From NCBI RefSeq assembly GCF_015265475.1, contig NZ_CP054493.1, positions 682,001 to 746,000 of the forward strand: a stretch of 64,000 bases of DNA, in the 5' to 3' direction. Positions within the stretch are counted from its first letter, which is position 1; the number at the start of each line of letters is the position of its first letter. Shown piece by piece: positions 38,263 through 64,000 of this stretch. This stretch comes from Candidatus Sulfurimonas marisnigri (GTDB lineage Bacteria > Campylobacterota > Campylobacteria > Campylobacterales > Sulfurimonadaceae). The notes beneath the pieces are model-generated. The model searched no databases, was not told where the DNA came from, and saw nothing but the letters and a program-made list of their open reading frames with translations. A program made the position numbers and the translations under genes.

Positions 38263-38274
38263 TTAAAATACTTA

Positions 38275-38310
38275 GGGGAGAGGAGTTAATTCCCCCCCCC
38301 CCTTTTTTTT
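38275..38310 (+). terminator. Terminator-like hairpin with an 11-C homopolymer and 8-T run
   Basis: GGGG(AGAGG...) at 38275 can pair with part of a run of eleven Cs at 38292-38302, directly followed by eight Ts. It is placed 13 bp after the amt stop codon. The C run allows alternative stem registers. Confidence 0.65.
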
Positions 38311-38329
38311 GTGTGTAGAGATACCATAA

Positions 38330-38725
<396 letters not shown>

Positions 38726-38732
38726 TTATAAC

Positions 38733-38756
38733 GCCAAAGGAAGTAATTTCTTTGGC
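38733..38756 (+). terminator. Hairpin after glnK
   Basis: GCCAAAG and CTTTGGC form a perfect stem 8 bp after the glnK stop codon. A second hairpin, GAATGC/GCATTC, follows at about 38792-38813. There is no U-run, so the role as terminator is uncertain. Confidence 0.4.
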
Positions 38757-38942
38757 AACGCTTACTCCGCTTAGGCAACTCGTCGTTGAGAATGCCATTG
38801 GTCAGCATTCCTAAAAGATGACTCCTATTTAAGTAGAATATTTACTTGAATTCTTCAAACTGATTAAAAATTAATCAACTCAAAAAAGAACTACATAGTA
38901 TTTAAGCTATAATATTTCCTTTAATTTTAAAAGGATATTTAC

Positions 38943-40118
38943 ATGTTAGAAGCTGATTTTAAATATATAATTGATACTTTCTTCACACTATTCACAATGG
39001 TCTTAATAATATTCATGGTTCCTGGTTTTGCCATGCTAGAAGCTGGACTTGTACGTACAAAAAATGTATCTGCTGTTCTTACAATAAATGTAATGATTTA
39101 CGCAGTTGCATCTTTGGCCTTTTTGCTCGTAGGTTATGAGCTAGCTTTTGGTGGCTGGGAGAGTGATACTCAGAGTATATGGGCAGTTTTTATGTTTCAA
39201 ATGGCATTTGTTGGTAAAACAGTAAATATTATGAGTGGTGGTGTTAGTGAGCGCGTTCGTATTATTCCTCTTGCTATATTTACAGTTGTTATGGGTGCAG
39301 TTATATACCCATTAGTTGTAAATGTAACTTGGGGTGCAGATATTCTAGCAGGTACAATGCTAGATATTGATATGTATGATTTAGCAGGTTCAACTGTGAT
39401 TCACTCAACAGGTGGTTGGGCTCTTCTTGCTGCAATTATGATAATGGGTCCAAGAAAGGGTCGCTACGTAGATGGAAAAATTAGAGTTATACCAGCTTCA
39501 AATATACCACTTGTTGTTTTGGGAGCACTTCTTCTTTGGATAGGTTGGTTTGGTTTCAACGGTGGAAGTGTTGGTTCTATTTCCTCTGTTGAGAATGCAA
39601 ACAGCGTTGCTAAAACAATTATGAATACTAATACAGCTGGTCTAGCTGGTGCTATCATTGCTGGATTTATTATGTATTTCAGATATAAACTGCTTGATAT
39701 TACTATGATTTTAAATGGTGCGTTGGGTGGTTTAGTTGCCGTTACTGCTGGACCTGATTTGTATGACATGTACACACCTATTTTAATTGGTCTAATCGGT
39801 GGTGCTTTAGTTGTTTTTGCAGTTCCTCTCTTTGATAAACTAAAATTAGACGATCCTGTTGGAGCACTTTCAGTTCACCTTGTAAATGGTGTCTGGGGAA
39901 CTTTGGCAGTTGGAATATTTGTAGATAGCGTCTCTTTTATGGCACAATTGAAGGGTGTTTTAATCGTAGCAGTTTTTGCATTTAGTGTTTCATTTGTAGT
40001 CTTATATAGTATAAATAAAATATCAAGATTCAGAGCAGAAGATGATGCTCAAGTTGAAGGCATGGATGTAAATGAGTGTGGTGTAGAAGCTTATCCAGAA
40101 TTCAAACGTGCTATATAG
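38943..40118 (+). CDS. amt: Ammonium transporter Amt (second, divergent copy)
   Basis: 391 residues, no cleaved signal peptide. Amt motifs: VPGFAMLEAGLVRTKNVSAVL, MSGGVSERVRI, GSTVIHSTGGWALLAA with the first pore His, GWFGFNGGS, and LSVHLVNGVWGTLAVG with the second pore His. It differs strongly from the first copy, so it is an old paralogue rather than a recent duplicate. It may have a different affinity or a sensory role. It has its own start region (AAAGGAT ribosome site) 217 bp after glnK. Confidence 0.94.
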   Translation: MLEADFKYIIDTFFTLFTMVLIIFMVPGFAMLEAGLVRTKNVSAVLTINVMIYAVASLAFLLVGYELAFGGWESDTQSIWAVFMFQMAFVGKTVNIMSGGVSERVRIIPLAIFTVVMGAVIYPLVVNVTWGADILAGTMLDIDMYDLAGSTVIHSTGGWALLAAIMIMGPRKGRYVDGKIRVIPASNIPLVVLGALLLWIGWFGFNGGSVGSISSVENANSVAKTIMNTNTAGLAGAIIAGFIMYFRYKLLDITMILNGALGGLVAVTAGPDLYDMYTPILIGLIGGALVVFAVPLFDKLKLDDPVGALSVHLVNGVWGTLAVGIFVDSVSFMAQLKGVLIVAVFAFSVSFVVLYSINKISRFRAEDDAQVEGMDVNECGVEAYPEFKRAI

Positions 40119-43875: not shown

Positions 43876-44688
43876 ATGCAAGTACACCGTAGCGGATATT
43901 ATCAGTGGCTAAATCAGCCGATCTCAGATAGAGAACTTGAAAATAAAGAATTGCTAATACAGATTAAAGATGCATTCAAAGCATCAAATGGTGTTTATGG
44001 TCACAGGAATATTCATAAAGACCTCAAAGAGTTAGGTATTCATGTAAATAAAAAGCGAGTAGCTAGACTCATGAGTGAAGCTAAACTGTATGGGGTAGGC
44101 ACTTATAAACGTAAGCCATATAGTAAGGCTGGTCCAGCTCACAAAGCTTATCCAAACCATCTTCATCAGTGTTTCATTTCAGGGAAGCCAAATGACACAT
44201 GGGTGAGTGATATAACTTACATTAGAACTAAAGAAGGATGGATATTTTTAGCCACTGTTATTGATTTATATAGTAGAAAAATTATTGGCTGGGCAACTGG
44301 CCATCGCCAAACTACACCGTTAATTGTTGAAGCATTAAAAATGGCCACAACAAGACTAAGTAAGGATGACAAGGTCATACTTCACTCAGATCAAGGGAGT
44401 CAATATGCTTCTTACGACTATAAAAAGTTTGCAACTTCACATAATATTACTCTGAGTATGAGTCGAAGAGGAAACTGTTATGACAATGCAGTTGCCGAGA
44501 GCTTTTTTAAGACTCTAAAAAAGGAGCTTGTTAGAAAACAGATATTTTTAACGAGAGAAATTGCAGCTTCTAAAATATTTGAATATATAGAAATGTTCTA
44601 CAACTCAAAAAGAAGACATAGTTATTTAGATTATATTTCACCGAATGAGTTTGAAAAAAGGTATAATCAAAAGTCTTTAAAAAGTTAG
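43876..44688 (+). CDS. IS3-family transposase OrfB (copy 2)
   Basis: Same 270-residue DDE transposase part as at 20997-21809 with the catalytic residues in WVSDITYIRT, ILHSDQGSQYAS and NCYDNAVAESFF. Both copies look functional. Confidence 0.93.
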   Translation: MQVHRSGYYQWLNQPISDRELENKELLIQIKDAFKASNGVYGHRNIHKDLKELGIHVNKKRVARLMSEAKLYGVGTYKRKPYSKAGPAHKAYPNHLHQCFISGKPNDTWVSDITYIRTKEGWIFLATVIDLYSRKIIGWATGHRQTTPLIVEALKMATTRLSKDDKVILHSDQGSQYASYDYKKFATSHNITLSMSRRGNCYDNAVAESFFKTLKKELVRKQIFLTREIAASKIFEYIEMFYNSKRRHSYLDYISPNEFEKRYNQKSLKS

Positions 44689-45402: not shown

Positions 45403-46116
45403 ATGATAAAAAAAGTAAAAGAAGGTCCGGCAGGTTATATGCCACAGTCAGCACCATCCATGGGAGTCGAACTTGCACCAAAAGGTCAAGCTTTACTTTA
45501 TGGGAATGTTGTCACTGAAGAAGAGGCAATGAGAGATGCTGCAATAGCATTACTCACAAAGGATAACCCAACAATCTTCCCTGGTCCTCAAGTTCTATGG
45601 GACTGGAAAGATGATGTTGCAGAGAAAGCTGCAGCTCTATTAGAACTTGCGTCAGAGATTCCAAACTGTAAAATTATTCCAATGCCAGATTACAGACCAA
45701 AATATCCAAAAATCGATGTTAAGGCTGAAATCAATCCAAATCACCCGAATCTAACAATCTTAGATAACAAAATCAAAGCTTGTGTTTTTGTAGGTGTACA
45801 CTGTCACTACGCAAATCTTACACTTAGAATGATCCGTGCTGGTACAGATTGTTATACGGTTGCATTATGTGCCTATATGGGACATGAAGAAGCGATGGCA
45901 TCAATCAGAGATTTACATGCAGATGATATTAGAAAATTCAAAGATATTGTCATTGAAGAGAGAAATAAACTAGGCATTGAGTGGACTACTACTCTACCAC
46001 CTGAAAATCCATCTTTACCAAAAGAGGATTATAGTACATTGTCACCGGCAGACTATGGCGAGTATAGAAGTCTCATCATGTCTAAAAAAGGTGAACATGT
46101 TACTGCAGTTGAATAA
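45403..46116 (+). CDS. Five-subunit 2-oxoacid:ferredoxin oxidoreductase, epsilon subunit (CODH-beta-like), set 1
   Basis: 237 residues. The family is often labelled carbon monoxide dehydrogenase beta subunit-like, and it is the extra epsilon subunit of the five-subunit pyruvate and 2-oxoglutarate:ferredoxin oxidoreductases known from Hydrogenobacter. Key stretches are NPTIFPGPQVLWDWKDD, MPDYRPKYPKIDVKAEINPN, VFVGVHCHYANLTLRMIRAG and ALCAYMGHEEAM. First gene of an operon epsilon-alpha-beta-gamma-ferredoxin; 12 bp to the next gene. A paralogue begins at 63470. Whether the complex acts on pyruvate or 2-oxoglutarate cannot be decided here. Confidence 0.87.
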   Translation: MIKKVKEGPAGYMPQSAPSMGVELAPKGQALLYGNVVTEEEAMRDAAIALLTKDNPTIFPGPQVLWDWKDDVAEKAAALLELASEIPNCKIIPMPDYRPKYPKIDVKAEINPNHPNLTILDNKIKACVFVGVHCHYANLTLRMIRAGTDCYTVALCAYMGHEEAMASIRDLHADDIRKFKDIVIEERNKLGIEWTTTLPPENPSLPKEDYSTLSPADYGEYRSLIMSKKGEHVTAVE

Positions 46117-46128
46117 AGGAGAAAATAG

Positions 46129-47313
46129 ATGAGCGCAATTGAAAGACCACAATTAAATAAGAAACTAGTAGATATTAATTATATGTTAAAAGAGGCTCCA
46201 AGAGAAAAGCACTTTATTACAGGTGCTCAAGCGATGGCGGAAGCTGTTAAAAGAGCAAACGTAGATATGGCTATTGCATATCCTATTACGCCACAATCAG
46301 AGGTTATGCACCTTGTTGGTGATATTTATCACCAAGGTCATATTAAAGAGTATTACAGAGCTGAAGAAGAGCTTGGTACGATGTCAGCTATCGCTGGTGC
46401 TTCAAGAGCAGGTGTTCGTTTGTTTACAGCAACATCAGGACCCGGACTTCTTAGAGGTTTAGAAGCAATTGTATCTTGGTCTGGACATAGAGTTCCAGCA
46501 GTATTAGGTATTTTAACTCGTGTTGTAAATGCACCATTATCAATACAGCCAGATAATATCGAAATGGCATACATGATGCACTGTGGTGCTGTTATGTTAC
46601 ATGCTGAGAATCAGCAAGATGTGTTTGATATGACATTGGCAGCATTTGCAATTGCAGAAAAAGTTGATGTTTATATTCCTGTAGCAGTTGCAACAGAAGG
46701 TTTCTTCGTAACACACGCAAAAGGTTACGTTGATATGACTCCTGAGGATATGGCACTAACTGCATTTGATCCAGTTGCTGCACCAGTTCCAGCTATGGAC
46801 AATGAAACGCCACCAGCTAGAATCCAAAGAGATGCTCCTGTTCAAAAGTCAAACTTTATGAGTTACTTAATTCATGCAGTATGGCAGCAAGAGATCTGGG
46901 ATTCAAATAAGCGTGCAATGAAATATATCTATGAGTATCTTGGTGGACCAATAGAAGTTCTTAACCCTGATGCTGATGTATTTGTTGTTGCTTCTGGTTG
47001 TGCTGCTGCACAAGGTAGAGAAGCTCATAGAGCTTCGCAAGAATTGGGTTTAAATGTTGGTTTGATCAAAGTAAAAGCAATTAGACCATTTCCAATTGAT
47101 GAAATCAAAGAAGCAACTAAGAATGCTAAGACACTAATTGTTCCTGAACATAACATTATTGGTTGGTTGTCTCAAGAAGTTAAAGCAGCTATACCTAATG
47201 GTGGTATTGTTGTAGGTGGTCCAAGAGTATTCGGTGGTATGACGCTTCCGGTTGAATTGATTATGAAAGAAATTTATACCGCTCTTGGTTTAGAATACGA
47301 TCTGAAATTATAA
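46129..47313 (+). CDS. 2-oxoacid:ferredoxin oxidoreductase alpha subunit, set 1
   Basis: 394 residues. Pyrimidine-binding (PP-like) domain of the thiamine-diphosphate enzyme: ITGAQAMAEAVKRANVDMAIAYPITPQSEV, in part, near residues 25-55, then YRAEEELGTMSAIAGASRAG, TATSGPGLLRGLEA and the C-terminal transketolase-like domain (VASGCAAAQGREA, VKAIRPFPIDEIKEA). With the other four subunits it carries out reversible CO2-linked reductive carboxylation of acetyl-CoA or succinyl-CoA, a step of the reductive TCA cycle. Separate from the beta subunit, as in POR/OGOR of this class. Confidence 0.93.
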   Translation: MSAIERPQLNKKLVDINYMLKEAPREKHFITGAQAMAEAVKRANVDMAIAYPITPQSEVMHLVGDIYHQGHIKEYYRAEEELGTMSAIAGASRAGVRLFTATSGPGLLRGLEAIVSWSGHRVPAVLGILTRVVNAPLSIQPDNIEMAYMMHCGAVMLHAENQQDVFDMTLAAFAIAEKVDVYIPVAVATEGFFVTHAKGYVDMTPEDMALTAFDPVAAPVPAMDNETPPARIQRDAPVQKSNFMSYLIHAVWQQEIWDSNKRAMKYIYEYLGGPIEVLNPDADVFVVASGCAAAQGREAHRASQELGLNVGLIKVKAIRPFPIDEIKEATKNAKTLIVPEHNIIGWLSQEVKAAIPNGGIVVGGPRVFGGMTLPVELIMKEIYTALGLEYDLKL

Positions 47314-47325
47314 AAAAGGGATAAT

Positions 47326-48234
47326 ATGAGTTTAAAATATGTAACTCCGGCAGAACGGTTTAAAAGATATCTACCAAAAGATTATGTAGAGTTAGTTGAC
47401 TATGGTCCATTTGGAAAGAGCCAGGATGAAGCTGGCCCTGGTAATATGGGACAGTTCAAAGAATTGATGGAAGAACATCCAATGTGTTCTGGTTGTTGGA
47501 TGGCGTATTACATCAGACTGATTTTTGCTTCACTACCATGTCCTGAAGAGACTGTTACACTTGGTACAGCTGGATGTGGTCGTTTGGCTATCTCACAAGC
47601 TGCTGTTCCATTTATTTATGGTAACTATGGCGACCAAAATGCTATGGCTTCTGGGTTATCACGTGCATTCAGATTACGCTTTCCTGATAAGCATAAGGAC
47701 GTTATTACAATAGCAGGTGATGGTGGTACAATGGACATCGGTTTTAGTATGACTATGCACTCTTGGATCCGTGGTGAAAAATTCACAACAATCATGCTTG
47801 ATAATGAAGTTTATGGTAATACTGGTGGTCAAGAGAGTGGTATGTCTCCTAAGGGTGCTGTATTGAAAATGGCTCCGGAAGGTAAAAAGTTTGAAAAGAT
47901 GCCTGCTACAGCATTGGCAAAAGCTGCTGGTTGTGTGTATATTGTAAAGATGTCACCAACAAATATCAAAAAAGCAGCAAAAGTCATTAGAAGAGCAATC
48001 TTTGTTGCTAGAGAAGTGGGTCCTACATTCATTCACGCATACACTTCATGTAATATCGAATATTCTATTCCTACGGAGGAAGTATTTGCAGATGCAAGAG
48101 CGCAAGAGAAAGATCGCTTCCAATTTGAAGAGTATATGACAGATGAAGCAAAAGCCGTGATAGAGCGAGTAGAAGCTGAAGAGAAAGCAACGTTAAGAGC
48201 GAAAAAAGGTAAAATTGCAGAGGAGGTAAGTTAA
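47326..48234 (+). CDS. 2-oxoacid:ferredoxin oxidoreductase beta subunit (TPP and Fe-S), set 1
   Basis: 302 residues. Contains MCSGCWMAYYIRL (CxxC) and LGTAGCGRL for a [4Fe-4S] cluster, and the thiamine-diphosphate motif IAGDGGTMDIG...LDNEVYGNTGGQ with its Mg-binding Asp/Asn. Catalytic core subunit together with alpha. The later region has RRAIFVAREVGPTFIHAYTSC. It starts 12 bp after the alpha gene. The C-terminus is a charged Lys/Glu/Ala-rich helix. Confidence 0.94.
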   Translation: MSLKYVTPAERFKRYLPKDYVELVDYGPFGKSQDEAGPGNMGQFKELMEEHPMCSGCWMAYYIRLIFASLPCPEETVTLGTAGCGRLAISQAAVPFIYGNYGDQNAMASGLSRAFRLRFPDKHKDVITIAGDGGTMDIGFSMTMHSWIRGEKFTTIMLDNEVYGNTGGQESGMSPKGAVLKMAPEGKKFEKMPATALAKAAGCVYIVKMSPTNIKKAAKVIRRAIFVAREVGPTFIHAYTSCNIEYSIPTEEVFADARAQEKDRFQFEEYMTDEAKAVIERVEAEEKATLRAKKGKIAEEVS

Positions 48235-48235
48235 T

Positions 48236-48943
48236 ATGGAAGCTAGAAAAAGATATAATATACGCATCTCTGGGCTAGGTGGGCAGGGTGTTGTTACCAC
48301 TGCGCACATTCTTGGTTCGACTATGGACAATGCAGGAAAATATGCATCGTTGGTACCGTTCTTTGGTTCTGAAAAAAGAATGGCACCTGTTGAAGCTTAT
48401 GTAAGAGCTTCATCAGAACCAATTTATGAAGTGGGTGAAGTTGTTTACCCTGACATCATTATGATTTATCACTCTCAAGTTGTTACACATGGTAAATCAT
48501 ACACAATGCCATTTTATACAGGTCTTAAACCAAACAGTCTAATAATTATTAATTCTGACTTTGATGTTCTTGAAGAAGAAGATAAGAAAGTACTTAGAGA
48601 TCTAAATGCAAAAGTTGTTCAATTTGATGCTACGGACTTAGCAGTAAAAGTAGCTGGTACTGAACTTGCAACAAATATGGCTATGATGGGTATGCTTCTT
48701 GGTCTTACAGAACTTGTAACTGAAGAAAATATTGAAGCAGCTGTAAAAGAGAGATTCTTGGGAAGCTCATTTGTTGCTTCTGGTGGTACAGCTGCTCTAG
48801 ACTCTGCTATCGAGAAAAAATTTAAGAAAAAAGAAGAATTGCTTGAAAAAAATATGGACGTTATCAAGAAAACTTTTGAGATGGCAAATTCTGTAGATCT
48901 AACTGGTAGTGATTTAGTTATCCAACTAGCACCGAATCTATAA
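48236..48943 (+). CDS. 2-oxoacid:ferredoxin oxidoreductase gamma subunit, set 1
   Basis: 235 residues with the gamma-domain signature IRISGLGGQGVVTTAHILG at the N-terminus, FFGSEKRMAPVEAYVRAS, and later FLGSSFVASGGTAALDSAIEK. The gamma domain interacts with CoA-substrate binding in oxidoreductases of this class. It follows the beta gene by a single base, so translation is coupled. The C-terminal ~50 residues form a helical extension. Confidence 0.92.
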   Translation: MEARKRYNIRISGLGGQGVVTTAHILGSTMDNAGKYASLVPFFGSEKRMAPVEAYVRASSEPIYEVGEVVYPDIIMIYHSQVVTHGKSYTMPFYTGLKPNSLIIINSDFDVLEEEDKKVLRDLNAKVVQFDATDLAVKVAGTELATNMAMMGMLLGLTELVTEENIEAAVKERFLGSSFVASGGTAALDSAIEKKFKKKEELLEKNMDVIKKTFEMANSVDLTGSDLVIQLAPNL

Positions 48944-51360: not shown

Positions 51361-52693
51361 ATAATGGCCTGAATATTTAAGACAGAAATTCAGCGAAGTT
51401 AATTTCTAAAATAGTTAAAATATTATGAAATTAATGGAGAGAAATATGAGTCGAAAAAAAGGTCAAACTTATAGTGCAGAACAAAAGACTACAATAGTGC
51501 TAGAGTTACTCAAAGAAGAAGAGACTATAGCGCAGATAGCAACTAAGTATAAAATCACTGCTCAGTCCATATCAAAGTGGAAGAAGCAATTTTTAGAAAA
51601 TGCTTCACTAGCTTTTGAACCAGCTAAAGCGGTACAAGAGTTTAAAAATGAAATCAAGACTAAAGATGAAGAGATAGAAGAGCTTCAAAAACAACTGGGT
51701 AAATCTGTTGTTGAAAAGGAATGGCTCGCAAAAAAGCTAGAGAGCTCGGTCTCATATAAAGAGAGAAAAACTCTCATAGAGAACGGGCTTGAACTTACTA
51801 AAACAATCCAATGTAAATTACTGGGTATTAGTCGTGCTACTCACTACTATAAACCAGTGTCCATGAGCAAAGTAAATCTAAAAATAATGCATACCATAGA
51901 CGAGATAGCCACAGACAACTCCGAGTACGGCTACAGATTTATTCATCAACAACTGCTTGAAGATGGCTATAGTATTGGCAAAGACAGAGTCTTAAAATAT
52001 ATGCAGTTTATGGGGATACAAGCGATATATCCAACAAAAAAGAAGTTGACAAGTATCAAAAACCAAGAACATAAAATCTACGAGTATCTGCTCAAAGAGT
52101 ACTGGACAAAAAACGGAAGAACTAAGCAGATATATGTTCCAGCACCAAACGAAGTTTGGAGCGGTGATATTACTTACATCAGAACTAATGGTGGGTTTAT
52201 GTATCTTGCTGCAGTTATAGACTGGCACACTAAAGCAATACTATCCTATAAGATATCAAATTCTATGGATGCAACGCTTGCAACTGATGTACTCAAAGAA
52301 GCACTTGCAAAATATCCTAAACCAAAGATATTTAACTCAGACCAAGGTAGCAAGTACACAAGTTATGAGCATACTCAAACTTTAAAACAACATGACATTC
52401 AAATCTCAATGAATGGAAGAGGAAGATCAATCGACAATATAGTCATTGAACGTTTCTTCAGAACTCTCAAACATGGAAATATCTATATCAGCGATTATCA
52501 ATCAATTAAGGAGCTAAAAGAAGGTGTCAAAAACTACATTCATAAATATAATTTCAAAAGATTTCATTCAGCTATTGCTTATCAAAAACCAATGAATCTG
52601 TATCTTGAATTTATAAAAAATGTAGGGTAAGGTGACAGTTAGAGGTGGAAATTAATTAAGCTGAAAAGTTGTCTTGATTTTTCAGGCCATTAT
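51361..52693 (+). mobile_element. IS3-family insertion sequence of a second type
   Basis: Terminal inverted repeats begin ATAATGGCCTGAA (51361-51373) and end TTCAGGCCATTAT (52681-52693), with further imperfect pairing inside. They enclose one transposase gene. No target duplication is clear. It abuts a right-end fragment of the 1292-bp IS, implying insertion into or beside it. Confidence 0.82.
51446..52630 (+). CDS. IS3/IS150-type transposase, single-frame OrfAB
   Basis: 394 residues from ATG 51446 (MSRKKGQTYS), preceded by GGAGAG. N-terminal HTH (AEQKTTIVLELLKEEETIAQIATKYKI), then a coiled coil (EIKTKDEEIEELQKQLGKSV), HTH_21 and the DDE core: WSGDITYIRTNGG (Asp), IFNSDQGSKYTS (Asp) and GRGRSIDNIVIERFFRTLKH (Glu). 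The two parts usually separated by a -1 frameshift are here in one frame. It looks intact and potentially active. Confidence 0.9.
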   Translation: MSRKKGQTYSAEQKTTIVLELLKEEETIAQIATKYKITAQSISKWKKQFLENASLAFEPAKAVQEFKNEIKTKDEEIEELQKQLGKSVVEKEWLAKKLESSVSYKERKTLIENGLELTKTIQCKLLGISRATHYYKPVSMSKVNLKIMHTIDEIATDNSEYGYRFIHQQLLEDGYSIGKDRVLKYMQFMGIQAIYPTKKKLTSIKNQEHKIYEYLLKEYWTKNGRTKQIYVPAPNEVWSGDITYIRTNGGFMYLAAVIDWHTKAILSYKISNSMDATLATDVLKEALAKYPKPKIFNSDQGSKYTSYEHTQTLKQHDIQISMNGRGRSIDNIVIERFFRTLKHGNIYISDYQSIKELKEGVKNYIHKYNFKRFHSAIAYQKPMNLYLEFIKNVG

Positions 52694-53122: not shown

Positions 53123-53596
53123 TTAAGACGCTCTATTCGGATTTTTTGCAACAGCTGCTCGAACATCTTCATTATCATCTTTACTCAATTTTACCAAAGT
53201 CTCAACGGGTGTGCTTGGATTTACTGAAACAGATGCTCGAATATTTTCGTCTTCATCTTCACTTAATTTATTTAATATATTAACTGGAGTATTTGGATTT
53301 CCAGCAACCCAATATGCCATCAATCTATCTTTACTTAGCTCAACCAAAGTCTCAACGGGTGTGCTTAGATGTTCTGCAACAAATTCTCGAACATACTCAC
53401 TCTCATCTTTACTCATTTTATCTAATGTTTCAGATGATGTATTTATATGTGCAGCAACTCTCACACGAACAAATTGACTCTCATCTTCACTTAACTTATC
53501 TAAAGTCTCAGCAGATGTATTTGGATTTTGCGTAAGCATTCTTCGAATATTCTCGTCATCACTTCTAGCTAACTTTAACTCTTCTATATTTGTCAT
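53123..53596 (-). CDS. LRV/HEAT-like repeat protein
   Basis: 157 residues made of about six tandem 24-residue units with the consensus NPNTPxETLxKLSxDExExVRxxVA. The pattern matches the leucine-rich repeat variant (LRV) family, alpha/3-10 solenoids. No N-terminal Fe-S Cys cluster, which some LRV proteins have, is present. No signal peptide. It may be a binding scaffold. Repeat units are similar enough in DNA to allow unequal recombination. AAGGTAAT-type site precedes the ATG. Confidence 0.82.
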   Translation of the reverse strand: MTNIEELKLARSDDENIRRMLTQNPNTSAETLDKLSEDESQFVRVRVAAHINTSSETLDKMSKDESEYVREFVAEHLSTPVETLVELSKDRLMAYWVAGNPNTPVNILNKLSEDEDENIRASVSVNPSTPVETLVKLSKDDNEDVRAAVAKNPNRAS

Positions 53597-54879: not shown

Positions 54880-55185
54880 TTATTGTGCACCATACTGACG
54901 TGAATCAATTTCCTCCATAAATCGCTCCAAAGAAAAGGTAAATAAATTTGCCAAATCTTGAGGAGTCTTCTCAAGGTAGCTTCGTGTCAAAGGCATATGC
55001 TGTATATGAGGATCTAGACCATTCACTGCATATGTAAACTGGATATACGGATCCCCATTACCAGAACCATCTGCAGTCATCAAAACTCCAGGTATACAAT
55101 ATTGAATTGTAACATCTGGGTTTACCGCAATATTATCAATGAGTCCTATAAGTGTTTGTAATTTCTCTTTTTGTTCTACTAACAT
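54880..55185 (-). CDS. Unrecognised 101-residue protein, paralogue of the next gene
   Basis: No family recognised. Shares with the upstream protein the layout: E.KEKL..LIGLIDN (helix), VTIQYCIPGVLMTADGS (Y-C-x-PG-x-x-MT), DPYI.FTY, then LTRSYL and a C-terminal helix (LANLFTFSLERFMEEIDS). The single Cys in YC.PG is conserved between the two. A very strong ribosome site (AAAGGAGGAGCG) precedes the ATG. Soluble, acidic. The pair may act as a heterodimer; 79 bp separate the genes. Confidence 0.75.
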   Translation of the reverse strand: MLVEQKEKLQTLIGLIDNIAVNPDVTIQYCIPGVLMTADGSGNGDPYIQFTYAVNGLDPHIQHMPLTRSYLEKTPQDLANLFTFSLERFMEEIDSRQYGAQ

Positions 55186-55264: not shown

Positions 55265-55567
55265 TTATCCCATTTCTACAGAGTCTATCTCCATTTTGAA
55301 TTGTTCAATAGAGAATGTAATCAAATTAGCAATTACATCAGCCTCATCTTTTAGATATCCCCTTGTTAAGTGGATTTTACGTGTTGGCTTAGTGTACTCA
55401 CTCACAACATACTCCACCAAAATATAAGGGTCTTCTGAAGTATTACAAGATTGTGAAGTCATAGCTATTCCAGGCATGCAATACTCAATATTAATCTCAC
55501 AATCAACCATTACATTACTAACAAGTTCAACAATTTTTTCCAGTTTTTCTTTGAGTTCTATGTCCAT
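55265..55567 (-). CDS. Unrecognised 100-residue protein, paralogue of the adjacent gene
   Basis: Start placed at ATG 55567 (MDIELKEKLEKI) with AGGAG upstream; the frame extends 21 codons further without a ribosome site. Shares IEYCMPGIAMTSQS, EDPYILVEYV, LTRGYL and IANLITFSIEQFKMEIDS with its neighbour, so tandem duplication is clear. No known family. Soluble. It is the first gene of the pair on the minus strand and lies 557 bp beyond the end of the dab operon. Confidence 0.75.
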   Translation of the reverse strand: MDIELKEKLEKIVELVSNVMVDCEINIEYCMPGIAMTSQSCNTSEDPYILVEYVVSEYTKPTRKIHLTRGYLKDEADVIANLITFSIEQFKMEIDSVEMG

Positions 55568-56124
55568 AATAATTCTCCTATCCCGAAGTGGTATGAGCAT
55601 ATCGTTCAGAATGATACACTTTGAATACATTGGATTTCAAGGTAAAGATACATCTCAATTGCCAATTTACATATAATAACAAAAAAAATTAAATTAATAA
55701 TATAAAACTAAAATCAATGAAAATAATTAAGGATAAAAAAAGTTTAATAAATCATTTATATTTCACTGAGTGTTAATATTGACTTAATTAAAAAAGGGTG
55801 CATAAAACATTAACTTAAACTCGTTATATTGGTAATAAACAAAGCATTATTTATTAATACCAGAAAACATTAAGTGTTAAAAATACTAGTAATACACTTA
55901 AAGGTGGAGTGTTTTCTAATATGAAATGTATATGACTAGTTTACATTGTGGAATTAGTAGAAGTTTTAAATTGCTTTAGTGGATTATTACTTGTTTAATT
56001 ATAAGAACCTACAAAAAATTATTTTGTAGGTTTTTAAGCACCGTTAGGTGCATTTAGTTAAAGGATATATTTTTAATATGCCTTTATTTAGAATATAATT
56101 ATTTATGGTGTATTGTCAGCAATT
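55568..56124. other. 557-bp intergenic region with a terminator-like hairpin
   Basis: No gene is seen. It contains the promoter region of the two 100-aa paralogues and the hairpin at 56006-56035. Confidence 0.4.
56006..56035. terminator. Strong hairpin downstream of the dab operon
   Basis: AACCTACAAAA and TTTTGTAGGTT form a perfect 11-bp stem with a 5-base loop, followed on the plus strand by TTT. It is 90 bp after the last dab-operon gene (minus strand), for which it probably ends transcription; the U-run on that side is weaker. Confidence 0.55.
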
Positions 56125-56439
56125 TTATCCAGCACAAGATCCACCTCCACTCGGTGGGGTTTCGCCATCATCAAAGCCAATTGTAACTGGATTTCTACGC
56201 ATAAGTTCTCTGATATCATCATCATCATCATCAACAGGTCTTAGACTGCTATGTATTATTATTTTATTATCGTAATCTACAGCTTCAAAAAAGTGTTTCA
56301 TACAGAACTCTTGATTCATTCGGCATTCCATAACCCTTGCTTTATTAATCATATCTTCTCTTGACTCAAATGTCATATTGTTTTCAAATCCACTCTTTTT
56401 AAAGCAGCTACACTCATTTTCAATTTCTATTGTATACAT
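56125..56439 (-). CDS. Small Cys-containing acidic protein at the end of the dab operon
   Basis: 104 residues, no family assigned. YTIEIENECSCFKKSGFENNMTF at the start has a CxC pair, ECRMNQEFCMKHFF holds two more Cys, and SCAG ends the protein after an Asp-rich stretch (PVDDDDDD) and DDGETPPSGGG. The five Cys and one His could bind a metal or cluster. It starts 21 bp after the dabA stop codon with an AAAGGAT site, so it is the last gene of the dab operon. A role in maturing or regulating the carbon transporter is inferred from position only. Confidence 0.7.
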   Translation of the reverse strand: MYTIEIENECSCFKKSGFENNMTFESREDMINKARVMECRMNQEFCMKHFFEAVDYDNKIIIHSSLRPVDDDDDDIRELMRRNPVTIGFDDGETPPSGGGSCAG

Positions 56440-56460
56440 TTTTATATCCTTTAATATTTA

Positions 56461-59334
56461 CTATTCTATCTCTTTTATTACAATGAATTCACCATATTCG
56501 TACGAGTAGACCTTTTTAGCCTCTGTATCTATAATAATAGGTCTAATCCATTCATTGATAATAAAAGGTTTTGCGATTGAATTCTCAACCGCTTTTAAAA
56601 CTTTTTCAAGGGGTGCTTCCATAAATGTCAGAAGTCTGACTGGTTCATGGTATGCCTTTCCTTCCAAATAAACTGATTGTATCGGAAGGCCTATTTTTAA
56701 ATCACTATAATTACCATTCATTACTCCTATTTTTGAAACTGTGTTGTGATACACTTTTGAACCAGCTCCATAGACATGATTGTCAACTGTGGAGAAATAA
56801 TGTTCTAAATTAATCCACTCACCTACTATTAATGGTCCATCGAAAATGCGCGTAAGGATTTCAGCATCATCATTATCTACTTTCCAATCATATGAGTGCA
56901 TAAAAAACCTATTATTTAAAGCTAGATGTTTGGTAGAACTTCTAGGACCCGCAAAAACTCCCATATTTTTAGCCAATCCCCACTCTGGTCTTGGTTCAGA
57001 CCAGTCCATAGATTTAATCATCATATCTTTTTCATTATGTGTGCATGGAAGAGATTGTGACCTTTCTTCTATTGATAGTGTAGACGCCTTGTTAAAATCA
57101 TCTTTGATTTTTGAAAATTGTTGCATCTCTTCATGACTCAAGATATCGGTATCGAAAAATTCGATTTTATCTGTTGTTGTAATGTGAAGACCAGGGATAA
57201 ACTTTGTATTTTCTGGGATATGAATCCCTTTTTCTTTCATTTTTTCTCTGACATCATGTGTATTTGCTATCATACATAGCGCTCTTGTATTTGGTAGACT
57301 TATATTTCCTCCACATGCGCCACAATCAAGGGCTGACTCAAATGGATTATTGTCTGATATACTGCCGTGACCGATAATCGTCACAAACTTAGGAAATACA
57401 TCAACTTGACCAACCATTGTTAGATATTTGTATAAATATGTAACTTTTTCTTCAAGGGTAAACCCTACCATTAAAAGCTTCTGCTTTTGGTATTCGTAAT
57501 CTTCAGGAGTGATCTGATATTCTGCTTTAAGTTTTTCAATCATCTTATTTGGTATATCAATACTTAGATAGTCATTTAAAATAAGATGTCTCCATATTTC
57601 ATTAGTCTCTTCTTTTGAAAACTCTTTCCCCAAGCTGCTATTTAAGTATTTAGAAATTATTTTAGTATGAAGTTTGTTGATATAAATCTCAATTCTTTCA
57701 GTTGAAAGTTTATCCATCGTATATGTGGTTTTTGGTTTTTTAGGCTTAATTTTTGAAAATAGTCTATTTGTTTTTTGTGGCAAAAATGTTTTACCAAAAA
57801 GAGTGATACCAAATATCCAACCAATTGCTTCAACCATTATAAACGGGGTATACGGGTTGTTTTTTAGATCACTTAAAATTTTCTTCGTAGTTTTATTGAC
57901 CCCTTTTTTTGACTTATATTCTTCTGATGACTCTTTAGGTATTTCAAAAACAACATTTCCAGGTTTAATAATGGCTGGTGCCAAAAACTGCTCATGTGCT
58001 TTGTCAAACTCTACAAAAGCTATAGGAATTCCAAGAAAACCCCCTGCACCATATGTTTTGTAAGCCCCTGTACTTTCTATATATCTACGTATAGTTTCAG
58101 AACGAACGTCCAAACAAAAAGTTGCTGAAGCTATTGGTTCTTCTTCATCTTCATTCTTAAGTTCAGTAAACTTTTCAACGTAATTATTTATGTAACTGTC
58201 TTCTAGTGATTTAAGCCAAATATACCCTTCTTCTTCTCTTAGTTTTTTTAAGATGGTAGCTAATTCTTTCAAAGGAAGATTGCTTTGTAATACCTCATTT
58301 GAGTGTTGAATTTGTAATGCGTCTAAATTCAACTCATTAGCGATATGTCCAGATAGAATTTTACTAGTTTTTTCATTGGCTTCTAAAGCATCCAAGGCTG
58401 GTCCAAAGAGCATGTTTTTATGCATAAGAAGTTGCAATATAACATCACTAATATTATTATTAGAATATTCTTCAAAAAGTTTAAAGTTACTAATCTTGCT
58501 TTTTTTTACAGATTCTAACTCATGATATAGCCTTACAGCAATATAATCTATTAATGTGCTTGGATACTGTTGCTGTGAAATATAATCTGGATCTTCTGAA
58601 CGGTATTTAATAAATCCGGCCCAACCATGAAGTTTGAGAAGGTGTGTCAAAAAGTAAGATTCAATGTCTTGGACATGGAGTTGTTTTAAGGACTCCTTTA
58701 CAAAGCTTTCAGCATCCCTTTCATAGGCAAAGTTTTCATAAAGTTTGAATGTTTCAAACATACCAAGTTCTCTATTTGGCATGCTGAGTGTCGTTTGATC
58801 TTCATCTAAAAAACGAGAAACAAACTCGATGATATTTTTTTCTATGTGTTCTTTGTCATCACCGCCAAAAAGTGCATCATTGATTTCATACAGTGTCATA
58901 TGTTTGATTAATTGATCTAACCATGCTTTTTCATCATAGAGGATTGAATTTTCTTGCAAGTGCAAATATAGCTCATCATCAATTTTCTCTTTTTTATGTA
59001 AAAATTTAATTCTAAGATGGTTCCATTGAGGACTAACTTCCATAAGAAGTTGCTTTGCAAGTTCTAAGTCTATCTCTAAATTATTTTTATTAAGAAGATC
59101 TTTTATGTTGGCCTCAATTGTAGAAATGTCGATTTTGCCTTGCCAATATAAATCCATGAAATATGATGAATCCATATAAACCTTGCCTCCAAATATATTT
59201 TGAGCCTTCTTCAATGCATCTTTAAAATGTAAATCTTCAAAACCTTTGAGAGGATTATGATGGATAAATGAGCCAATAGGCCAATAGTTTGGGACTATAT
59301 CCTTTACGGAATTTAGCTTTTCTATAATACTCAT
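56461..59334 (-). CDS. dabA: DabA, inorganic-carbon accumulation subunit (DUF2309/UPF0753)
   Basis: 957 residues. Cytosolic subunit of the DAB system, carbonic-anhydrase-like, which together with DabB converts CO2 to bicarbonate with energy from the ion gradient. Zinc-site residues known from this family are visible: Cys and Asp in TFCLDVRSETIRR (~406-408), His in IIGHGSISDNNPFES (~655) and Cys in LDCGACGGN (~669). NYWPIGSFIHHNPLKGFEDL at the N-terminus is also family-typical. It overlaps the preceding membrane-protein gene by 4 bp. Length lies within the usual range (800-1100). Confidence 0.95.
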   Translation of the reverse strand: MSIIEKLNSVKDIVPNYWPIGSFIHHNPLKGFEDLHFKDALKKAQNIFGGKVYMDSSYFMDLYWQGKIDISTIEANIKDLLNKNNLEIDLELAKQLLMEVSPQWNHLRIKFLHKKEKIDDELYLHLQENSILYDEKAWLDQLIKHMTLYEINDALFGGDDKEHIEKNIIEFVSRFLDEDQTTLSMPNRELGMFETFKLYENFAYERDAESFVKESLKQLHVQDIESYFLTHLLKLHGWAGFIKYRSEDPDYISQQQYPSTLIDYIAVRLYHELESVKKSKISNFKLFEEYSNNNISDVILQLLMHKNMLFGPALDALEANEKTSKILSGHIANELNLDALQIQHSNEVLQSNLPLKELATILKKLREEEGYIWLKSLEDSYINNYVEKFTELKNEDEEEPIASATFCLDVRSETIRRYIESTGAYKTYGAGGFLGIPIAFVEFDKAHEQFLAPAIIKPGNVVFEIPKESSEEYKSKKGVNKTTKKILSDLKNNPYTPFIMVEAIGWIFGITLFGKTFLPQKTNRLFSKIKPKKPKTTYTMDKLSTERIEIYINKLHTKIISKYLNSSLGKEFSKEETNEIWRHLILNDYLSIDIPNKMIEKLKAEYQITPEDYEYQKQKLLMVGFTLEEKVTYLYKYLTMVGQVDVFPKFVTIIGHGSISDNNPFESALDCGACGGNISLPNTRALCMIANTHDVREKMKEKGIHIPENTKFIPGLHITTTDKIEFFDTDILSHEEMQQFSKIKDDFNKASTLSIEERSQSLPCTHNEKDMMIKSMDWSEPRPEWGLAKNMGVFAGPRSSTKHLALNNRFFMHSYDWKVDNDDAEILTRIFDGPLIVGEWINLEHYFSTVDNHVYGAGSKVYHNTVSKIGVMNGNYSDLKIGLPIQSVYLEGKAYHEPVRLLTFMEAPLEKVLKAVENSIAKPFIINEWIRPIIIDTEAKKVYSYEYGEFIVIKEIE

Positions 59335-60062
59335 AATAGTGTCTCCTTAAATCCTAATATGCTAAGAATCAGAAGTGAGATGACAATAAGAAAATGGATT
59401 ATTTTTTCTTTTGAAGTCATATGAACATAGTGGATGTTTGAATTTGGTCTGCCAAATAGAGTTTTTCTCATAACTCTCATAGCAATAAAAAAGTTACCAA
59501 AAAAGAGTGTCGTTACTACGATGTACCAAAGTAGATTCGGTTCACTATTGAAGATATAGCTTAGGAAAAAGATTGAATTTGGAAATGGTGGATAAAGAGC
59601 AAGGGCAATCAAATAAAGAGTCAGATAAGTGCCCACACATGGCGTTACAAGTGTGATTCCAGTAATATGACGATAATTGGCACTTCCATAGTTTTTTTCA
59701 TAAAATTTTGCAATCAAATAGAGACCTATTAATGACACTAGAAGTGATAAACTGTACATTGCACCCTCATCCTTGAAAAGGATAAAAAATGGTGCATTTA
59801 CAAATATAAAGTAGTAACCCAATTTATAAAAATTTGTTGTTTTCGCTGCTTTGTAGATGGAGAATATTGCACTAATAAGCGAGACCACAACAAGTGAAAT
59901 TGCATGTTCATGCGGTACAAATAGTGAAAAAATGATAGCACATAGAAGTAAAATACCACTTAATAAAAAGATGTGCTTACTACTAAGTTTTGCAACTCTT
60001 TCCAAAATAATGTAGTAGGGTACCCCTGCAGCCAATATCAATAATAGGATATCAGATATCAT
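59331..60062 (-). CDS. Extra membrane protein between dabB and dabA
   Basis: 243 residues with about seven hydrophobic segments, e.g. HIFLLSGILLLCAIIFSLF, LYSLSLLVSLIGLYLIAKF, TGITLVTPCVGTYLTLYLIA and IIHFLIVISLLILSILGF. Inner-membrane protein; no family recognised. It is coupled to both neighbours by 4-bp overlaps (dabB stop, dabA start), so it is surely made together with them. The classical DAB system has only dabA and dabB; this may be a third subunit that helps DabB span the membrane, or a detached part of a NuoL-like chain. Confidence 0.72.
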   Translation of the reverse strand: MISDILLLILAAGVPYYIILERVAKLSSKHIFLLSGILLLCAIIFSLFVPHEHAISLVVVSLISAIFSIYKAAKTTNFYKLGYYFIFVNAPFFILFKDEGAMYSLSLLVSLIGLYLIAKFYEKNYGSANYRHITGITLVTPCVGTYLTLYLIALALYPPFPNSIFFLSYIFNSEPNLLWYIVVTTLFFGNFFIAMRVMRKTLFGRPNSNIHYVHMTSKEKIIHFLIVISLLILSILGFKETLL

Positions 60063-61669
60063 GCTTTATCCTTTTTGAAAATGTTGAATAGACTAAAGAA
60101 ATATCCCTCTTTTGCTACAAATCTATAAAACATCCATTTCATTTTATTTATTTCATTTTTATTTGTTGGAATATCGATGAAATGTTGATTATATATAAAT
60201 ATCCACCCAATAACCATAATAATAGCCAGAATGATAAGTGATGTCACAAGTGTCATGTTGAATGTTGCTGCTTGGTAAAAGAGTTGAGCATCATCTTTAT
60301 ATAAAAAGTGTTCTAGTGACAATCCGACAAATTCATACGTGAACAAGATAATAATAAATGAGCTAATAAGTGCAAAGACTACTTTTATAGTTTCAGATTT
60401 AGATACTTTAAAAAATGACAAGAAGAGTTGTGTACCAGTAAGCCAACCAAATGCCAAAATAACAATTGAAGCATTGAACTCAAAAAATTCTTCACTTAAA
60501 ACCATTTTAATCCCAATAAAAATAATAATTGGGAGGATGGTAAAAAATGCCAAGTAATTGAAAATTTTAGTACCTTTGCTTTTAAGTTTTTCTTCCCAAA
60601 AAAGCTCATAAGAAAGACGTTTAGGAAGGTTTGATTCGTGCCTAGCCAACCGTATAAGAGCACCTGATTCTAAAAAGAGTGTAGCTTTAAATATGCCATG
60701 TACAATCAGGTGATAGATAGCTAGGGAAAATGCACCAAGACCAATTTCCATAATCATGTATCCCATTTGTCCTGCAGTTGAGTATCCGAGTGAACGTTTT
60801 ATATCAGAGACTGTAAGCATAATGACAGATGCAAAAATTGCAGTGACAAGGCCAACTATAAATGCAATATTAAGTACAGCTGGTGCCAACAGCAGCAGAT
60901 AAGCCAACTTATTAAGTAAAATCCCTCCAACATTTACAACTCCAGCATGCATCACAGCTGATACAGGGGTGGGGGCTTCAGACGTGTAAGGCAACCAAAT
61001 ATGAAACGGCATAATGGCAGATTTCATCATAGCAGCTATCAAGAAAAGTAGTCCAATTACAAAAATCATTGGATTGTCAACAGTGTTTTTGGACATTGCC
61101 AACCATTTTTCACTCAGTATGGCCAGGTCAAAACTTTCAAATATTTGATAGGTCAGAATTATGGCAAATAAAAATACTAAATCAGCACCTTTATGAATAA
61201 TCATAATCCATTTAGCTTGTTTTACAGCTGTGTTTGAAGCTACATTAAATGATACAAGAAGGTATAGGCTAATACTCAAAAGTTGCCAAGCAAGTGCTAG
61301 TACAATAAGATTATTACTCATTACAAGTAAATAGATTGCTGAAAAGATAAAGTTTAAAAGAATAAAAAATCTTCTATAACCCTCTTCATCCCACATATAT
61401 TTAGTCGCATATTTACGAATTACTAAACCTAAAATTGCAACATATGGAACTAAAATAGCTGAGAGTTCGTTATAAATAAGCAATCCATCAAATCCAACAA
61501 CTGGTGCATCATTACTTATTACGTAATATGTTCCATACAATCCAAGTATCGCAATCATACTTGAGAGTATGATGCTGACTTTTGGAATAAGCTCTTTTTT
61601 TCTGACAAAATATAGAATAAATGCTATAAAAATTGGTATGCTTGGAATGAGCAATATGATTTTTTCCAC
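60059..61669 (-). CDS. dabB: DabB, membrane subunit of the DAB inorganic-carbon pump (NuoL/ND5-like)
   Basis: 536 residues with about 14 membrane helices and the proton-channel family core: HKGADLVFLFAIILTY, MKSAIMPFHIWLPYTSEAPTPVSAVMHAGVVNVGG, in part, and LGYSTAGQMGYMIMEIGLG with conserved Lys and His residues. It belongs to the family of NADH dehydrogenase subunit 5/MrpA antiporters. Without other nuo or mrp genes but beside dabA it is identified as DabB, supplying ion-gradient energy to DabA. First gene of the operon. Start preceded by AGGAG. Confidence 0.92.
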   Translation of the reverse strand: MEKIILLIPSIPIFIAFILYFVRKKELIPKVSIILSSMIAILGLYGTYYVISNDAPVVGFDGLLIYNELSAILVPYVAILGLVIRKYATKYMWDEEGYRRFFILLNFIFSAIYLLVMSNNLIVLALAWQLLSISLYLLVSFNVASNTAVKQAKWIMIIHKGADLVFLFAIILTYQIFESFDLAILSEKWLAMSKNTVDNPMIFVIGLLFLIAAMMKSAIMPFHIWLPYTSEAPTPVSAVMHAGVVNVGGILLNKLAYLLLLAPAVLNIAFIVGLVTAIFASVIMLTVSDIKRSLGYSTAGQMGYMIMEIGLGAFSLAIYHLIVHGIFKATLFLESGALIRLARHESNLPKRLSYELFWEEKLKSKGTKIFNYLAFFTILPIIIFIGIKMVLSEEFFEFNASIVILAFGWLTGTQLFLSFFKVSKSETIKVVFALISSFIIILFTYEFVGLSLEHFLYKDDAQLFYQAATFNMTLVTSLIILAIIMVIGWIFIYNQHFIDIPTNKNEINKMKWMFYRFVAKEGYFFSLFNIFKKDKA

Positions 61670-61960: not shown

Positions 61961-62347
61961 TTAACTTGAGGGTGTGTCTATGGAACTGAAAACTTCAACT
62001 TTCTCACTATGTAAGACTTCTTTCTTTGTAGTGAATGACAAGGCATCTAAGTCTTTTTCTCCAGTTCGTATACGTTCTACTTCAAGTACTGGGGTAACCC
62101 ACATTTTACCTGTACCATGTTCGATATCCTGTGCATTAGCACGAATAGCTTCCATAGCCTTCTCTTTATGAATAGTGTCTGCTACTACAATCACAATTAA
62201 TACTTTTTCAATTAGCTTATTTTCTTTATTGAAGCATCCTTTACCAACAACATTAGTAATAGTAATACCATGAATCTTTTCATCGTGAAGACCTTGTACT
62301 ACATCATCGATTACTGATGGATTTAAAACGGCATTTATCTGAAACAT
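61961..62347 (-). CDS. PII-like signalling protein with a shortened T-loop, upstream of dab
   Basis: 128 residues with the PII fold: IDDVVQGLHDEKIHGITITNVVGKG, then a much shortened T-loop (CFNKENKLIEKV) without the Tyr that is uridylylated in GlnB/GlnK. The B-loop (QDIEHGTGKMWVTPV) and the C-loop IRTGEKDLDAL are kept, so nucleotide binding is likely. The C-terminus has about 20 extra residues. Related PII proteins next to bicarbonate or DAB transporters sense adenine nucleotides or bicarbonate. Same strand as dab, 291 bp upstream. Regulation of the DAB pump is inferred. Confidence 0.85.
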   Translation of the reverse strand: MFQINAVLNPSVIDDVVQGLHDEKIHGITITNVVGKGCFNKENKLIEKVLIVIVVADTIHKEKAMEAIRANAQDIEHGTGKMWVTPVLEVERIRTGEKDLDALSFTTKKEVLHSEKVEVFSSIDTPSS

Positions 62348-63183: not shown

Positions 63184-63411
63184 ATGTATTATGTAGCAAA
63201 AGTTAATTCAGACATGTGTGCTGAGCATAAATGTAATATGTGTACACTATATTGTCCAGAAGCGAATACGCTGATGTTCAATAAAGATGGGAATACATCT
63301 TGGGTAGATGAAGATAGATGTAAAGGCTGTGCACTTTGTGTGTACGTGTGTACTGACATGCTTAGTCGAGATTGTATTTCGATGGAAATGGTTCATGGTA
63401 AAGAAGAGTAA
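63184..63411 (+). CDS. 8Fe ferredoxin-like delta subunit, set 2
   Basis: 75 residues, identical in protein to 48959-49186, with the Cys groups CAEHKCNMCTLYCP and CKGCALCVYVC. The two genes differ at 5 silent positions, while flanking sequence is unrelated. Here it is the first gene, followed 58 bp later by the epsilon-subunit gene, i.e. gene order differs from set 1. GGAG precedes the ATG. Confidence 0.93.
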   Translation: MYYVAKVNSDMCAEHKCNMCTLYCPEANTLMFNKDGNTSWVDEDRCKGCALCVYVCTDMLSRDCISMEMVHGKEE

Positions 63412-63469
63412 GTCTATAAATTATATTTAATTAAAACTTATACTATAAAAAAAATTCATAGGAGAACTT

Positions 63470-64000
63470 ATGGCAAATCAAGGCCCAGCGTATTATTCAC
63501 CGTATCCAACGGCTGTATATGAAGGTGTAATTACACCACCAGAAGGAAAAGCACTTTTATTAACCGAGGTGGTTGATGAAGAAATTGCAATGAGAGAAAT
63601 TGCAAAAGTTATGTTGACAAGTGAAAATGCAACTATTTTCCCTGGTCCACAAGTATTATATGGTTTCAATGAAGAAGCTAAGAAAAAAGCTAAACTTATC
63701 AAAGAGATGGCAGAAGTTCTTAATTCTAAAATGATTCCAATGTACGATTATAGACCAAAGTATCCAAAGATTGATGCTGAAGTTGAGATTAATCCAAATC
63801 ATCCAAACTTAACAATTTGGCATAACAATATTAAAGCAGCAATCTTTATTGGTGTTCATTGTCATTATGCAAATGTTGCTTTAAAGATTGTAAGAGCAGA
63901 AACAGACTGTTATACAATCGCGATTTGTGGTTTGTCAGGGCATGAAGATGCAATGGCTACATTAAGAGACCAGCATTCTTCAGAGCTTGAGAAATTCATC
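63470..64000 (+). CDS. Epsilon subunit of a second five-subunit oxidoreductase (partial)
   Basis: Starts at ATG 63470 (MANQGPAYYSPYPTAVYEG) with AGGAGA upstream and continues past the window edge; 177 codons are visible. Matches the set 1 epsilon subunit in NATIFPGPQVLYGF, YDYRPKYPKIDAEVEINPN, FIGVHCHYANVALKIVRAE and SGHEDAMATLRDQHSSE, with clear divergence elsewhere. Alpha, beta and gamma genes are expected to follow outside the window. With set 1, the pair would be pyruvate- and 2-oxoglutarate-specific enzymes of the reductive TCA cycle. Confidence 0.87.
   Translation, partial: MANQGPAYYSPYPTAVYEGVITPPEGKALLLTEVVDEEIAMREIAKVMLTSENATIFPGPQVLYGFNEEAKKKAKLIKEMAEVLNSKMIPMYDYRPKYPKIDAEVEINPNHPNLTIWHNNIKAAIFIGVHCHYANVALKIVRAETDCYTIAICGLSGHEDAMATLRDQHSSELEKFI

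Follow-up and report, generated by a model that had tools for sequence, protein, structure and literature searches.

What is a third membrane protein doing between the two genes of a CO2 pump? The question is raised by a 64,000-nucleotide stretch of the Candidatus Sulfurimonas marisnigri genome (contig NZ_CP054493.1, positions 682,001 to 746,000; hereafter the window), in which the genes dabB and dabA of a DAC/DAB pump are separated by a gene for a membrane protein of 243 amino acids (aa), here called c243. The original prediction, made from these letters alone, took dabA plus dabB to be the known system, and proposed c243 as the third subunit of an undescribed variant and a Cys-rich protein encoded after dabA as a possible metal or maturation factor. 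The four-gene layout that it described stands: dabB, c243, dabA and the gene for a 104-aa Cys/His protein follow one another in this 2.49-Mb, single-contig genome (Table 1), with overlaps of 4 base pairs (bp) between dabB and c243 (60059-60062) and between c243 and dabA (59331-59334), and a 21-bp spacer before the 104-aa gene. c243 is a membrane protein as proposed, but about eight helices, several of them broken, rather than seven are counted in its predicted model; likewise, the 104-aa protein does contain five Cys, although this number is not extreme for 104 residues. Residue numbers count the start Met throughout, and the predicted structure models were built without it. We consider it probable that the operon encodes a three-subunit DAB1-like pump, in which c243 is the third subunit and docks on DabB, and that this pump supplies dissolved inorganic carbon (DIC) to the reductive tricarboxylic acid (rTCA) cycle.

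The two outer genes have the features expected of a DAC/DAB pump. DabA scored 691.7 bits against PF10070 (cut-off 25), and a DabB belonging to PF00361 is encoded in the same operon. DabA keeps the Zn ligands C407, H656 and C671, the dyad D409/R411 and the finger Glu E502, all of which are common to the 21 DabA rows shown and whose roles are taken from work on DabA2 (PMC13144422). DabB keeps K216, H223, H241, K291, H320, H324 and K328, positions that have been tied to proton transfer (PMC13144422). In a PDB sequence search at E<=0.001, the sole match to DabA was DabA2 (three entries with one sequence, including 9rd0; E 1.3e-79). With the functional residues of both proteins retained, the operon is predicted to encode a working inorganic-carbon pump, and by homology to DAB2, protons passing through DabB would power CO2 hydration at the buried Zn site of DabA.

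How constant is the gene between them? A search with c243 itself returned 21 loci in Campylobacterota and Aquificota, with the order dabB-c243-dabA in 21/21; since a locus set collected in this way is biased, we surveyed genomes with DabA (PF10070) instead. DabA was found in 4 of 347 genomes of the phylum, 22 of 135 of the genus and 13 of 398 of the order. These surveys overlap and give 36 distinct rows, or about 34 genes, because L065/L071 and L066/L070 each appear to be a single gene split over contigs (L and G numbers denote loci and genomes of our surveys). The upstream side is cut off in four rows (L065, L066, L068 and L105). In each of the 32 Campylobacterota rows with that side in view, an interstitial gene lies immediately upstream of dabA, counting as present L056 and L103, where it is broken in the assembly. 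In 30 of these rows, dabB is visible on the far side of that gene, and the contigs of L106 and L111 end inside the interstitial gene. A first search of the phylum had suggested that c243 is rare in dab loci (c243 in 2/347 genomes, DabA in 4/347), and this view was rejected, as both apparent exceptions carry a distant interstitial protein. The gene arrangement is not due to chance, and c243 as a fixed component of the dab system is borne out; absence of the 243-aa protein from most related dab loci, named beforehand as the result that would speak against it, was not what the survey gave.

The survey resolved two kinds of three-gene locus. The c243 kind has a DabA of about 957 aa, and the near relatives of c243 come mostly from Sulfurimonas and Sulfuricurvum. 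The DAB1-like kind has a DabA of about 1011-1044 aa (the longer open reading frame (ORF) of L107 probably has its start placed too far upstream), an interstitial protein of 245-251 aa and a P-II gene after dabA, the last in 7/7 rows (L102-L108). One genome, G532, carries both. The locus in the window shares with the DAB1-like kind a gene for a membrane protein of about 250 aa between dabB and dabA, but its P-II gene is upstream of dabB instead of directly after dabA; we treat this position as a subtype difference and not as a defining feature. On plasmids, 123 records had a DabA match and 11 were opened: Nitrobacter has three genes, in nine of the ten others dabB directly precedes dabA with no space for a gene between, and in the Sphingobium record dabB lies beyond the record start. 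Nine plasmid loci, all with a short DabA (792-869 aa), consist of just two genes, and tblastn of a DAB1-like interstitial protein against plasmids returned a single record at E 0.09.

A third gene of this kind is already in print. The DAB1 locus of Halothiobacillus neapolitanus (hneap_0907 for DabA1, hneap_0908, and hneap_0909 for DabB1) has been called a three-subunit DAC (PMC13144422), and, according to the available part of another report, its interstitial gene was expressed together with dabAB1 in Escherichia coli in functional form (PMC7714395). The premise that the known system is dabA plus dabB is therefore not supported, nor is the label of an undescribed variant of the CO2 pump, and c243 as an undescribed kind of subunit is rejected. 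We class the operon as a subtype in its own right of the three-gene pump already known; its third gene is known in kind. As far as the literature searched shows, what is new is that the interstitial protein is predicted to have the fold of one antiporter half only, that none of the sampled Campylobacterota dab loci in view lacks an interstitial gene, and that a second subtype exists and pairs with five-gene oxidoreductases.

Neither c243 nor the 104-aa protein matched a Pfam family at E<=1 or an NCBIfam family, and a PDB sequence search with c243 gave one chance-level match (E 1.7). A profile of 17 sequences of the c243 kind aligned over nearly the whole length with three DAB1-like interstitial proteins (L028, L029 and Nitrobacter) with an hhalign probability of 95.3, E 2e-8 and a score of 60.7. 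As controls, 40 block shuffles scored at most 26.7, and unrelated membrane proteins, for which only two ORFs were usable, scored 13.1 and 14.9. c243 is thus a homologue of the protein encoded between dabB and dabA in DAB1-like operons. The AlphaFold2 model of c243 (no templates, 20 sequences) has a pLDDT of 88 and a pTM of 0.87, and Foldseek aligned it at E<=0.001 with 28 PDB chains, which are membrane subunits of complex I, photosynthetic NDH-1, formate hydrogenlyase and Mrp. The best match of a second structural aligner was bovine ND4 residues 198-459 (Z 21.7, root-mean-square deviation 3.1, 237 residues), a Z that exceeds the level of the aligner's warning for helical bundles. Furthermore, a pooled interstitial profile matched the genome's own Nuo subunits (probability 79.8, E 1.4e-5, score 47.6; at most 25.8 in 100 shuffles), namely their C-terminal half (E 1.1e-5; N-terminal half, E 0.098). 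The model thus predicts that c243 is folded like an antiporter-like subunit from about transmembrane helix (TM) 7 to TM14, its C-terminal half, and like that half only. The conserved proton-path residues are not seen in c243: in the profile alignment, the NuoL-type His-His-Lys is replaced by Tyr, Leu and Leu, and c243 has a gap opposite the TM12 Lys and Asp. Therefore, we do not file c243 under PF00361 and doubt that it conducts protons, although the Halothiobacillus interstitial protein was assigned to PF00361 and labelled as mrpA family in the available part of PMC7714395. An origin of c243 by duplication of the DabB C-terminal half was rejected for want of a profile match to DabB.

How might such a half-subunit act? 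Antiporter-like subunits in complex I are lined up so that each meets, with its C-terminal half, the N-terminal half of its neighbour. We propose that c243, as a non-conducting third subunit, would dock on DabB in the same way and cover the DabB face around the TM5 position (Gln129), where it may scaffold or tune coupling. In DabB2, the TM5 residue is Ile151, where NuoL has Glu, close to that interface (PMC13144422). At this position, each of the seven c243-kind rows shown has Gln, two DAB1-like rows have His and Nitrobacter has Phe, so that Gln or His is present in 9/10 three-gene rows shown versus 0/9 two-gene rows. This pattern agrees with a partner that covers that face of DabB in three-gene pumps.

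Several points weigh against this reading. That c243 touches DabA or DabB at all is something we infer, and ancestry confounds the TM5 pattern, to which Nitrobacter is an exception. Two-gene DAB2 functions without such a subunit (PMC13144422). The c243-type sequences alone gave no significant profile match to the Nuo subunits (E 0.094); the sequence signal to Nuo depends on the DAB1-like members. No PF00361 match at E<=1 was obtained for c243, its 20 aligned members or the nine interstitial proteins scanned, seven of them DAB1-like, and c243 had no profile match to DabB. In the DabA tree, the c243-type, DAB1-like and two-gene groups are separate, but support for the DAB1-like group is only 0.547 and a single three-gene clade is not established. 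Lastly, the co-occurrence described below was scored in a single genus and may reflect one transferred cassette.

There are three other explanations of c243. It might be an assembly or stability factor for the insertion of DabB and DabA and no part of the working pump; the missing proton-path residues speak for this, as does the fact that two-gene pumps (DAB2) work without such a protein (PMC13144422), and the gene overlaps fit co-translational assembly. Yet co-transcription is compatible with either role, and a half-antiporter fold of the type found packed against such subunits in complex I suits a lasting subunit better, so that we regard an assembly factor as unlikely. The same fold contains the TM9-13 bundle, a bundle for which DabB2 has no equivalent to that of NuoL (PMC13144422), and the polar residues K80, N89, E122 and N124 are invariant in 20 c243-type sequences, which would suit an ion-conducting half-channel that adds a second path for protons (or sodium). 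The substitution of the canonical His-His-Lys and the gap at the TM12 Lys/Asp argue otherwise, K80 and E122 vary in the DAB1-like relatives, and we hold such a channel to be improbable. That c243 is an unrelated membrane protein kept by operon hitch-hiking only would account for the lack of a hidden Markov model family and the low identity between the interstitial types; since the gene occupies the same position in two phyla, overlaps dabA and is homologous between the types, this explanation is disfavoured and appears very improbable. The non-conducting third subunit on DabB remains our preferred role for c243.

A separate proposal concerns the 104-aa protein, which might be dedicated to DabA, delivering its Zn or aiding its maturation. 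Its residues C10, C12, C46 and H49 (a CxC...CxxH core) are invariant in 25 aligned relatives, including the second copy that follows the 104-aa gene in many loci, and it follows dabA in 22/22 Campylobacterota c243-type rows with the downstream side in view. The long dab-linked form (E<1e-40) occurs only in genomes with c243-type dab, in 19/20 of them versus 0/115 other genomes of the genus. In contrast, no relative was seen in the three Aquificota c243-type loci with that side in view, which have the same pump, or in the DAB1-like loci. Relatives were found in 81/135 genomes of the genus, 59 of them without DabA, and their surroundings varied in the ten loci examined. The family as a whole is hence rejected as dab-specific, and the 104-aa protein is a dab-linked branch of a wider family. 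The predicted model has low confidence (pLDDT 69.5); with it, Foldseek matched no known fold (best E 0.34), and a PDB sequence search with the protein gave no match. Metal binding is plausible, but since the family also occurs in genomes without dab, a dedicated maturation role is unproven, and we think Zn delivery to DabA rather unlikely. A CobW-type GTPase gene (PF02492) located just beyond the window (L112:5445-6413, equal to G000:C1:748944-749912) is a better candidate for the metal chaperone of the dab cassette, though it might serve a different enzyme encoded there. The relatives at L093-L101 and elsewhere are small and have the CxC...CxxH core, and a CCGGGCGSH-like tail is present in several of them; by eye, L096 and L100 adjoin apparent arsR/arsC/arsB-like genes and L093 is near an arsB-like gene.

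Table 1 Features of the dab region in the window
Feature	Position	Strand	Description
dabB	60059-61669	minus	536 aa, GTG start; NuoL/Mrp-like membrane subunit of DAC/DAB CO2 pump; PF00361 E 1.8e-41
c243 (interstitial membrane protein, 243 aa)	59331-60062	minus	homologue of interstitial protein in DAB1-like operons
dabA	56461-59334	minus	957 aa; beta-carbonic-anhydrase-like catalytic subunit; PF10070 E 1.8e-207
104-aa Cys/His protein gene	56125-56439	minus	C10, C12, C46, H49 core; acidic stretch
P-II-family gene	61961-62347	minus	PF00543 E 8.5e-15; 291 bp upstream of dabB
75-aa Cys-rich ferredoxin-like ORF	63184-63411	plus	probable first gene of divergent 2-oxoacid oxidoreductase operon; by-eye resemblance
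CO_dh-beta-like subunit gene	63470-64000, running past the window (L112)	plus	PF02552 E 1.8e-47
Second oxidoreductase operon (CO_dh-beta-like gene 45403-46116 plus alpha, beta, gamma-like genes)	45403-48943	plus	
Small acidic protein gene	55265-55630	minus	family linked to c243-type dab genomes
Paralogue of the 55265-55630 protein	54880-55185	minus	second match in this genome, 40% identity

The proposed link to the rTCA cycle comes from the surroundings of the operon: unlike the three-gene operons described before, this one is accompanied by carbon-fixation enzymes of another pathway. Two oxidoreductase operons with a CO_dh-beta-like subunit stand on either side of the dab region (45403-48943 and 63184-64000). 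The divergent one contains five genes, a ferredoxin-like ORF, the CO_dh-like subunit and then POR_N, thiamine pyrophosphate and POR subunits, with the CobW-type GTPase after them; its 75-aa first ORF resembles by eye the 83-93-aa ORFs that precede the CO_dh-like gene at L002, L003, L007 and L008. In a sequence search of this genome, the CO_dh-beta-like gene of the second operon showed 55% identity to the query subunit, and its alpha, beta and gamma-like genes were assigned by eye from their likeness to scanned genes. Genes like these are seen by eye beside many c243-type loci of the two phyla. Within the genus, the CO_dh-like subunit was found in 20/20 c243-type dab genomes versus 0/115 others, the CobW-type GTPase in 19/20 versus 0/115 and the small acidic family in 14/20 versus 1/115. 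The 115 others comprise 113 genomes without DabA and two with the DAB1-like kind only; G432 was counted as c243-type from a DabA end and the long small protein only, and G373, the sole c243-type genome without CobW and the long Cys/His protein, is 73% complete. The cut-offs were self-chosen (CobW E<=1e-60, which leaves weaker relatives uncounted; CO_dh-like 1e-20; long small protein 1e-40). Because the genomes are related, Fisher tests on these counts overstate the evidence, and a single transferred cassette would also yield the pattern.

The remaining neighbours can be described briefly. The P-II gene, absent from the account in the original prediction, has relatives upstream of dabB at L005, L007 and L012 as well; its product is probably a regulator of the pump. 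Two Amt-like ammonium transporter genes (by eye) lie at 37006-40118 in the same window. The paired small acidic proteins belong to an unnamed family with the motifs IEYC..P... and DPYI..YV, and their relatives are near dab or oxidoreductase genes at the Aquificota loci L017 and L021 (by eye). Proteins of short degenerate repeats (by eye) are encoded near both dab subtypes (53123-53596 in the window; L028:11365-12717). A SulP-type permease gene (PF00916; only the L002 copy was scanned) stands beside the dab operon at L002:2727-4034 and L003:2605-3906 and is a possible second DIC transporter. Apparent IS3-type transposase genes (by eye) are located at 43876-44688, before the first oxidoreductase operon, and at 51425-52630, between that operon and dab; their presence fits a history of mobility for the region.

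The neighbouring operons would, we infer, encode the same type of enzyme as the five-subunit 2-oxoacid oxidoreductases (OOR/POR) of Aquificales type. These have been described in Sulfurimonas pluma, where their transfer from Aquificales and their O2 tolerance are discussed (PMC10066037, from the available part). The main text of that paper contains 0 occurrences of "inorganic carbon", "bicarbonate" and "carbonic anhydrase" and no DIC pump; in the literature searched, with most subscription papers outside its reach, we found no publication in which a dab operon is joined to five-subunit enzymes. DIC transporters in rTCA Campylobacterota and Aquificota were raised in general terms in the available part of a DIC-toolkit review (PMC10880623), of which the pairing of dab with the oxidoreductases would make a specific and testable case. 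The CO_dh-like pairing in the genus suggests that the rTCA cycle in its oxygen-tolerant form includes a carbon pump, and the pump would feed DIC to a cycle of this five-subunit type. A bolder version, which we offer tentatively and judge to have somewhat less than an even chance, is that a half-antiporter, equivalent to the NuoM C-terminal half but devoid of its proton wires, binds DabB in trans and makes of the two-subunit pump a three-subunit machine with a complex-I-like interface between subunits, and that this subtype, together with its CobW GTPase, its Cys/His protein and the five-subunit oxygen-tolerant OOR/POR, makes up one transferable cassette and serves as the dedicated carbon pump of aerobic rTCA in Campylobacterota and Aquificota. 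In the literature, DAB pumps are proton-driven carbonic anhydrases, and the two-subunit DAB2 is the only relative for which we found a solved structure; a third subunit shaped like half of a complex I channel would, if true, show how the coupling machinery has been extended and present a direct target for mutagenesis.

Compared with known systems, the locus is similar and different as follows. MpsAB of Staphylococcus has a homologous DabB/DabA pair, but it is described as a pair and as a proposed Na+/HCO3- symporter (PMC13144422). With the NuoM/NuoL/ND4 and Mrp subunits, c243 shares a fold over its full length (ND4 198-459 or NuoM 226-488), while it lacks their N-terminal half, the PF00361 match and the canonical proton-path residues. 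The five-subunit OOR/POR of Aquificales and Sulfurimonas pluma have the CO_dh-like extra subunit that is also seen in the neighbouring operons here. DAB2 (DabA2/DabB2, PDB 9rd0 and two further entries) has the same DabA active site, finger Glu and DabB proton-path residues, but it is made from two genes with no interstitial subunit and a shorter DabA (870-residue chain), and has Ile151 in TM5 instead of Gln (PMC13144422). On plasmid 1 of Nitrobacter hamburgensis (NC_007959.1), the order dabB, 253-aa hypothetical protein, dabA, P-II occurs twice in tandem, and there the genes lie beside form I rubisco and carboxysome genes and the tail gene is P-II. Closest in plan is DAB1, which likewise consists of dabA, dabB and a gene for a small membrane protein. 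The DAB1-like operons seen (Nitrobacter, L028 and L029) differ in their longer DabA (1013-1044 aa), their distant interstitial protein and the P-II gene after dabA, whereas the operon described here combines a DabA of 957 aa with P-II upstream, a Cys/His protein after dabA and 2-oxoacid oxidoreductase neighbours.

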